Assembly (NCBI RefSeq): GCF_014646875.1
Contig: NZ_BMOC01000004.1
Span: 1-64,000, forward strand
Length of the DNA stretch: 64,000 nucleotides
Direction: 5' to 3'
Source: Halobellus salinus
Lineage (GTDB): Archaea; Halobacteriota; Halobacteria; Halobacteriales; Haloferacaceae
The notes under the pieces are model-generated. The model saw nothing but the letters and a program-made list of their open reading frames with translations, was not told where the DNA came from and did not search any database. Each line of letters starts with the position of its first letter. The first letter of the stretch is position 1. This document shows positions 43,608 through 49,195 of this stretch, piece by piece. A program made the position numbers and the translations under genes.

Positions 43608-43688
43608 CCGACCAACAGTACGGTCCGGGGCACACCGACCGACAGTACGGTCCGGGGCACACCGACCAACAGTACGGTCCGGGGGACA
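43608..43688. repeat. Three tandem 27-bp repeats
   Basis: The unit is CCGACCAACAGTACGGTCC plus GGGGCACA, repeated exactly three times with two substitutions. It lies in the gap between pccB and the oxidoreductase gene. No open frame through it has the normal haloarchaeal composition. Confidence 0.75.
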
Positions 43689-43865
43689 CTGAGAGAACGC
43701 GGTGCCGTCGTTGGCCGCGGGACCCCCCGGGCCCGCCGGATGGTCTGCTCCCGAGACCGACCGCAGACCCGCGGCCGTGAGGCCGGCCCCCGCCCGCGTC
43801 GGCTCTGTCTCCCGGTGTCTCACGCCGGGTCGACCGGCCCATCAGTTCGAGGTCGCTCGACGACG

Positions 43866-47011: not shown

Positions 47012-47278
47012 ATGACGGACGGGACCGACCGCGCCGCGGTGACGCTCGCGGAGTGGCCCGACGACGCCGACGCCGACGAGGGCGTGGTGGTGAACTGGTT
47101 CGCCCGCGAGGGCGCCCACGTCGACGCCGACGCCAGCCTGTGTGAGGTACAGATCGAGAAGGTCAGCGTCGACGTGCTCGCGCCCGTCGCCGGGACGCTC
47201 ACGGAGGTCGTCGCGGCCGAGGACGCCGAGTTCGCCCGCGGGGACACCCTCGCGTGGATCTCCCCCGATGCCGGGTGA
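47012..47278 (+). CDS. Free-standing lipoyl-domain protein
   Basis: 88 residues, only a lipoyl/biotinyl domain. VTLAEWPDDADADEGVVVNW starts the sandwich, and the modified lysine lies in VQIEKVSVDV at a beta turn, followed by LAPVAGTLTEVVAAED and RGDTLAWI. In ordinary E2 proteins this domain is the N-terminal arm; here it is its own gene. GTG 46994 is possible, but ATG 47012 is chosen. It overlaps the E2 core by 11 bases, so the two should be made together. Confidence 0.86.
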   Translation: MTDGTDRAAVTLAEWPDDADADEGVVVNWFAREGAHVDADASLCEVQIEKVSVDVLAPVAGTLTEVVAAEDAEFARGDTLAWISPDAG

Positions 47279-48203
47279 CGACCCCGCCGAACGGACGGTC
47301 GCAAGCGAGCGGTCGCTGAGCCCGATGCGGCGGACGATCGCCTCGCGGCTCCAGGAGAGCTACCGGGAGGCGGTCCACGTCACCGTGAGCCGCGAGGTCT
47401 CGGCGACGGCCGCACTCGCCGCGTCGGACGTCGAGCTGGACGGCGACGGCTCCGTCTCGCCCTCGGTGACCGACGTCCTCCTCCGTGCGCTGTCGGATTC
47501 GCTGGCCGACCACCCGTCGTTCAACGCGACCTTCGAGGACGGAACGCATCGAATCTACGAGCAGCACAACATCGGTGTCGCGGTCGACATCGACGAGGGG
47601 CTGGTGACGCCGGTGCTCGAAGACGTCGGCTCGAAGTCGCTCGCCGAGATCACGCGGGAGCGCCGCCGACTGACCGACCGGGTGCGGGCGGGCGAGTACT
47701 CCATGAGCACGTTCGAGAACGGGACGTTCACCGTCTCGAACCTGGGGCCGCTTGGGAGCGACTTCTTCACGCCCGTTATCAACCCGCCGGAGGTGGCGAT
47801 CCTGGGCGTCAACCGAATCAGGGAGGCGGTCGTGCCCGCGACGGCGGCCGAGGGGCGCGACGCCGGAAACGGTGCGAGCGGCGACGGAGGCCCCGCAGGC
47901 GACGCCGGAAACGGTGCGGGCGGCGACGGAGACCCCGCAGGCGACGCCGGAAACGGTGCGGGCGGCGACGGAGGCCCCGCAGGCGACGCCGGAAACGGTG
48001 CGAGCGGCGACGGAGGCCCCGCAGGCGACGCCGGAAACGGTGCGGGCGGCGACGGAGGCCCCGCCGACGGACGCTTCACGACCGACAAGCGCATGACGCT
48101 CGACCTGAGCTTCGACCACCGGGTGGTTGACGGCGCCGACGCGGCCCGGTTCTTGGGGACGCTTGCGGACCACCTGAACGACGCCGACGCGTACGTGGGG
48201 TGA
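47268..48203 (+). CDS. E2 acyltransferase catalytic core with inserted Gly/Asp repeats
   Basis: 311 residues. There is no lipoyl domain and no clear E1/E3-binding domain: from residue 19 the chain begins directly with RSLSPMRRTIASRLQESYRE. Then comes NIGVAVDIDEGLVTPVLEDV, MSTFENGTFTVSNLGPLGSD, PPEVAILGVNRIRE and, near the end, the active-site LDLSFDHRVVDGADAARFLG. Between the last two lies a 70-residue insert of five 14-residue repeats, DAGNGA(S/G)GDG(G/D)PAG (see 47859-48068). In known E2 cores this is a loop of about a dozen residues. It would carry out acyl transfer from the separate lipoyl protein to CoA. Confidence 0.87.
   Translation: MPGDDPAERTVASERSLSPMRRTIASRLQESYREAVHVTVSREVSATAALAASDVELDGDGSVSPSVTDVLLRALSDSLADHPSFNATFEDGTHRIYEQHNIGVAVDIDEGLVTPVLEDVGSKSLAEITRERRRLTDRVRAGEYSMSTFENGTFTVSNLGPLGSDFFTPVINPPEVAILGVNRIREAVVPATAAEGRDAGNGASGDGGPAGDAGNGAGGDGDPAGDAGNGAGGDGGPAGDAGNGASGDGGPAGDAGNGAGGDGGPADGRFTTDKRMTLDLSFDHRVVDGADAARFLGTLADHLNDADAYVG
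47859..48068 (+). repeat. Five 42-bp tandem repeats in the E2 gene
   Basis: The unit GACGCCGGAAACGGTGCG plus GGCGGCGACGGAGGCCCCGCAGGC is repeated five times with only a few substitutions. It is in frame, encodes a disordered, Gly/Asp-rich loop, and sits just before the DHRVVDG active-site strand. The low divergence between units suggests recent expansion. Confidence 0.9.
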
Positions 48204-48866: not shown

Positions 48867-48934
48867 ACGGAGGGGTGATGAGGGAGCACTCGACCGTCCC
48901 CAAAAGCAACGTATTGCCGGACGAATCTCCGAAT

Positions 48935-49195
48935 ATGTGGAAGCCGACACGGATCTCCGAGCATGGACGAGTCACTATTCCGAAAGAATTCCGCGATACG
49001 TACGACATCTCGGCCGGTGACGAAATCGTCTGGATGGACACCGACGACGGTATCCTTGCGACGAAGCGCACTCACACCGGCGGGCGCGGGATGCTCGTTC
49101 CGGACGATGCGACAGAGACAGAGCGTGAAGCGGTCGCGGCTGAACTGAAGCAGCGGCTCGATCGTCGACGCGATTCCAACTACAAAGACGGGTAA
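48935..49195 (+). CDS. AbrB/SpoVT-type DNA-binding protein
   Basis: 86 residues. [20 protein letters not shown] is the swapped-hairpin AbrB/MazE-like fold, with [20 protein letters not shown] completing it. The C-terminal half is an acidic helix ([20 protein letters not shown]). In haloarchaea these act as repressors or antitoxin-like proteins; no toxin gene lies next to it. ATG 48935 is chosen. Upstream in-frame starts at 48878 or 48854 would add a tail that is not family-like. Confidence 0.75.

Follow-up and report, generated by a model that had tools for sequence, protein, structure and literature searches.

In textbook 2-oxoacid dehydrogenases, the E2 core carries both the lipoyl arm and the docking domain on which the complex relies. 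The actinobacterial protein OdhA contains an E2o core fused to E1o and uses lipoyl groups presented in trans by AceF (PMC10415282), LbpA is a free-standing lipoyl carrier (PMC6067878), and a comparative study has recorded single-domain lipoyl proteins in archaea (PMC3904984). Archaeal Borg proteins carry in-frame tandem repeats that generate disordered regions (PMC9879509). In our literature search, made without the older Haloferax volcanii operon papers, an E2 core that lacks the peripheral-subunit-binding domain (PSBD) and is paired with a free lipoyl protein was not directly described.

We analysed a 64,000-nucleotide stretch of the Halobellus salinus genome (the window; contig NZ_BMOC01000004.1, positions 1 to 64,000) that contains a 2-oxoacid dehydrogenase operon with all genes on the plus strand, running from E1 alpha through E1 beta, a lipoyl protein and an E2 core to a lipoate-ligase-like gene (Table 1). 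Pyruvate-type models are the best scorers for both E1 subunits: E1 beta exceeds the cut-off of NF006667, a PDH E1 beta subfamily model, and the top NCBIfam match of E1 alpha is PDH E1 alpha, at a score under that model's cut-off. The original prediction, which placed a free-standing lipoyl domain and a catalytic core without a PSBD at 47012-48203, had the end points right and is borne out on both parts of the layout. Pfam detects no domain beyond Biotin_lipoyl in the 88-residue lipoyl protein. The likely E2 start, the ATG at 47268, opens a frame of 311 residues, different from that of the lipoyl gene, and the two genes share 11 nt at the end of the lipoyl gene; lipoyl domain and E2 core are separate chains, unlike those of canonical multidomain E2 proteins. 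The E-K-V motif of the lipoyl protein (E49, K50, V51) is invariant in the eight sequences compared, and K50, in the lipoyl hairpin, is presumed to be the lipoyl lysine.

Table 1. Features of the 2-oxoacid dehydrogenase operon in the Halobellus salinus window.
Feature	Position	Strand	Evidence and remarks
E1 alpha subunit, 2-oxoacid dehydrogenase, 346 aa	44925..45965	+	Pfam E1_dh E 2e-67; operon's first gene
E1 beta subunit, 336 aa	45965..46975	+	Transket_pyr + Transketolase_C
Lipoyl-domain protein, free-standing, 88 aa	47012..47278	+	Biotin_lipoyl E 2e-12
E2 acyltransferase catalytic core, 311 aa	47268..48203	+	2-oxoacid_dh E 7e-62; without lipoyl domain, without PSBD
Five tandem 42-bp units inside E2 core	47857..48064	+	TRF 42 bp x 5.0, 96% match
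Lipoate-ligase/octanoyltransferase-like protein, 219 aa	48207..48866	+	LplA-B_cat E 7e-10

The E2 core matches PF00198 at 209 bits (cut-off 23) in two stretches that flank an insert, and the protein has no match to E3_binding (PSBD, PF02817). Residues D283, H284, D288 and G289 of the DHRVVDG motif are invariant across 39 E2 sequences. An AlphaFold2 model of a single subunit, built from 39 natural sequences, has a mean pLDDT of 83, with values above 90 across most of the core; Foldseek aligns it to solved E2 cores with E values of 1e-22 to 1e-18 and TM-scores (by target) mostly of 0.75-0.90, which points to an E2 core fold. We considered whether another E2 or lipoyl domain might do the work and rejected this, since the genome, rated 99% complete, holds only one E2 core. 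A search for the PSBD (PF02817) across the whole genome gave no match, and the positive control was detected in Haloferax volcanii. One other Biotin_lipoyl protein is present, a biotin-carboxylase-type fusion; GcvH is encoded by a separate gene, and the E3-like gene is solitary and lies on a different contig. The genome also has a lipoate-synthase match and two ligase-like genes.

The ligase-like protein encoded directly after the E2 core may modify the operon's lipoyl protein. A 71% identical gene occupies the same location in the relative G006 (L004, L122, L152), and most other relatives have none there. By eye, the product carries RRVGGRAVATT at the position of the RRxSGGG-type motif of lipoate ligases, and it retains the lysine of DAKLAGLAQ; a divergent octanoyl/lipoyl transferase is one possible identity. 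Further downstream (window 48926-49195), between the operon and succinyl-CoA synthetase, lies a MazE/AbrB-type antitoxin-like gene, for which we identified no toxin partner here; by eye, the relative G004 (L005) has a PIN-like ORF at a roughly equivalent site.

Comparison of haloarchaeal sequences indicates that the split between lipoyl and core genes is an old, ordinary layout in this group. The same gene pair, with short loops and cores 61-82% identical (best segment), is found in the same-genus genomes G002-G006, and the four-gene order E1a-E1b-lipoyl-core recurs in Halomicroarcula rubra (L040), Halostagnicola sp. A-GB9-2 (L041) and Halobaculum gomorrense (L043). We sampled 391 Halobacteria genomes and took the 30 loci with the best E2 matches and the 30 with the best lipoyl matches. 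Of the E2 loci, 28 (the Halobellus salinus locus counted) have a free lipoyl gene upstream of a PSBD-less core; of the lipoyl loci, 19 adjoin the core. A split core with a neighbouring free lipoyl gene and no such insert is present in at least 27 haloarchaeal genomes besides this one, and in 32 other genomes of the sample the E2-core match falls within an open frame of at most 350 codons, which leaves no room for a full-length E2. We also considered that the split might be a sequencing frameshift of a fused E2; this was rejected, as it recurs in many genomes, some of which have clean intergenic gaps.

The free lipoyl protein is distributed more broadly than the split core, with matches above 75 bits in about 130 genomes of the same sample; at 11 of the 30 top-ranking lipoyl loci, E1 genes are present with no core next to them. 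E1-lipoyl operons without a neighbouring E2 core were seen at L127-L132, L136-L138, L140 and L142. In the same-genus genomes G007, G009 and G011, the lipoyl locus has no core and a full-length E2 is encoded elsewhere. Among full-length haloarchaeal E2 proteins, L010, L012-L017, L044 and L046-L049 have an OsmC-like domain fused C-terminal to the core (for L010, Pfam OsmC E 3e-15), and several show, by eye, two E3-binding-like stretches in tandem. A relative from another family, G056, has a fragmentary split-type E2 core with an internal stop (G056:C1:1275146-1275493), which suggests that the system is occasionally lost.

The array inside the core (TRF score 395) is the strongest in the window and well beyond chance. 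It encodes five in-frame copies of the 14-residue unit DAGNGA[S/G]GDG[G/D]PA[G/D], which read, in order, DAGNGASGDGGPAG, DAGNGAGGDGDPAG, DAGNGAGGDGGPAG, DAGNGASGDGGPAG and DAGNGAGGDGGPAD; TRF and translation thus agree on the predicted five Gly/Asp repeats in the loop preceding the DHRVVDG strand. Four codons differ among the units, and in three of them the change swaps one of Gly, Ser and Asp for another; so few differences do not suffice to exclude selection on unit composition. Among 149 haloarchaeal E2 matches, the net insertion (span minus model coverage) is +75 aa in Halobellus salinus, followed by +15 and +14. Judged by the other haloarchaeal E2 cores searched, in none of which 42-bp repeats were found, the repeats are private to the Halobellus salinus genome. 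The corresponding loop in the split cores of relatives is about 8-12 aa long, as in the close relatives' PNENSEHGVGTEK and PDGDGGVAVETR; in Halobaculum gomorrense it has been lengthened independently by a Gly/Asp-rich stretch, RAGGGDGAGDASGTDAGESG (+14 net), which indicates that the loop tolerates growth. The statement that no such E2 had been described therefore stands for the repeats, within the searches made, and falls for the split, which is common in Halobacteria. Relatives with neither feature would have spoken against the original prediction; those examined retain the split and lack the repeats.

A genome-wide search found no repeat DNA elsewhere that could have served as a source. Tandem arrays scoring at least 100 number 18 in 400 kb of the Halobellus salinus genome (4.5 per 100 kb) and 19 in 400 kb of the relative G004 (4.75 per 100 kb), and several of the Halobellus salinus arrays have units of 24-54 bp at 97-99% identity. 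The E2 array is the top scorer among those seen in the 400-kb sample, yet belongs to the same population. With similar arrays this common (4-5 per 100 kb), the simplest account of the E2 array is replication slippage into a hairpin that tolerates it. Another strong array in the window (43608-43689; 27 bp x 3.0, 94%) is apparently intergenic, between a propionyl-CoA-carboxylase-like gene and a divergent quinone-oxidoreductase-like gene. Our preferred reading, to which we assign a probability of about 0.75, is that this is a working E1a-E1b-lipoyl-E2 core operon in which the repeats are a recent, near-neutral, in-frame tandem duplication at a tolerant hairpin tip. Taken alone, the repeat insert is probably ordinary slippage.

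At about 70 aa the insert is long; it is also Gly/Asp-rich and, as predicted, flexible and spacer-like, with pLDDT below 50 at residues 199-221 and 223-258 of the AlphaFold2 model. In these respects it resembles interdomain linkers, and it might act as a functional tether, an arm of the E2 trimer that takes over from the missing linker and PSBD by capturing the lipoyl protein, E1 or E3; with no second E2 and no PSBD match genome-wide, any docking would need another element. We think such a role unlikely. Both ends of the insert are anchored in the core, so it is a closed loop rather than an arm carrying a terminal domain, and its repeats are composed of G, D, A, N, S and P alone, with no recognisable binding element. 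Moreover, the persistence of repeat-free split cores in at least 27 other genomes means that a tether is unneeded, and on this point the proposed replacement of the missing linker by the insert is not supported. We would give no better odds to a broader version, in which the only E2 operates with no subunit-binding domain anywhere in the cell, a diffusing lipoyl protein shuttles between E1, E2 and E3 as unattached enzymes, and the repeat loop has come to keep partners close to the E2 trimer.

Nor does the model of one subunit support the position first proposed for the insert, at the active site. In the model, it bridges strands 177-190 and 270-283 and so forms the tip of a long beta-hairpin; the catalytic His284 follows directly after the second strand, whose other end carries the insert, some 14 residues away. 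Fourteen extended-strand residues at about 3.3 angstrom each give an estimated length, not taken from coordinates, of about 45 angstrom, which places the loop well away from the catalytic histidine of its own subunit. In E2 enzymes, active sites lie between subunits, and a single-subunit model leaves room for the loop to come near the active site of a neighbouring subunit in the trimer.

A somewhat less probable alternative is halophilic adaptation, with the insert serving as an acidic, hydrated spacer that increases solubility in high salt. Each 14-residue unit has two to three Asp residues and lacks basic ones, and the same loop of the Halobaculum gomorrense E2 bears a shorter Gly/Asp-rich extension. 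However, the insert is absent from close relatives that are presumably as halophilic, and only about 1 in 7 of its residues is acidic. An ordinary haloarchaeal protein is at least as acidic as this, so that the insert adds length and not charge density.

We consider it very unlikely that the E2 gene is decaying and that its repeats expand because the complex is dispensable. Haloarchaea also use ferredoxin oxidoreductases for 2-oxoacids, and the G056 fragment offers an example of a degraded core. Against this, the reading frames of the operon are open, the catalytic residues are intact and this is the genome's only E2; pairwise dN/dS values against three relatives are 0.153/0.642, 0.144/0.503 and 0.339/1.014 (about 0.24-0.33), and the E2 core is under purifying selection. 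An assembly artefact is hardly credible: although the array (208 bp of near-identical units) was read from a single draft assembly of 54 contigs, representing one strain of the species, its units are not all identical, its frame is maintained throughout and its flanks match relatives on both sides, so that the uncertain part is the copy number rather than the existence of the array.

Under the preferred reading of a working operon with a near-neutral duplication, the lipoyl protein would be lipoylated at K50 and act as a separate, diffusing subunit that takes an acyl group at E1, passes it on to the E2 core and returns to the oxidised state through an E3 whose gene lies elsewhere, a mobile carrier in the manner of GcvH. 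The E2 core has a normal fold and a normal catalytic motif. The 42-bp unit would have been duplicated in tandem and in frame, recently in the Halobellus salinus lineage and presumably by slippage, leaving a disordered, mildly acidic tassel predicted to hang away from the catalytic histidine. Such repeats are most likely neutral or nearly so, and since other split cores work without them, they are not what makes the split viable. In many haloarchaeal operons, both the lipoyl arm and the docking domain are untied from the E2 core, and because a docking domain is undetectable in Halobellus salinus, this organism provides a clean test of whether tethering is necessary. The insert itself is a natural experiment on the tolerance of an E2 core and a possible strain marker.

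The closest counterparts of this locus are the haloarchaeal split operons (L040, L043, L041), in which the genes follow the same order, the lipoyl and core genes overlap or lie side by side, and the cores likewise lack a lipoyl domain and PSBD (about 59-82% identity over the core); unlike Halobellus salinus, none has the 42-bp repeats. Canonical lipoyl-PSBD-core E2 proteins, including the full-length haloarchaeal ones, share the catalytic core and the DHRxxDG motif, and differ in carrying the lipoyl domain on the same chain, whereas Halobellus salinus encodes that domain as its own protein and lacks a detectable PSBD genome-wide. As in OdhA, the E2 core of Halobellus salinus has no lipoyl domain and would depend on an acyl carrier in trans; by contrast, OdhA is fused to E1 and its donor is E2p, whereas the donor here would be a single-domain protein. 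GcvH, LbpA and the archaeal single-domain lipoyl proteins likewise consist of one lipoyl domain as an independent protein, and the Halobellus salinus protein differs from these in being encoded alongside the E1 and E2 core of a 2-oxoacid dehydrogenase. Finally, the repeats resemble those of Borg proteins as in-frame tandem units that yield a disordered stretch, but they are imperfect, lie on a chromosomal-scale haloarchaeal contig and form part of a cytoplasmic enzyme.
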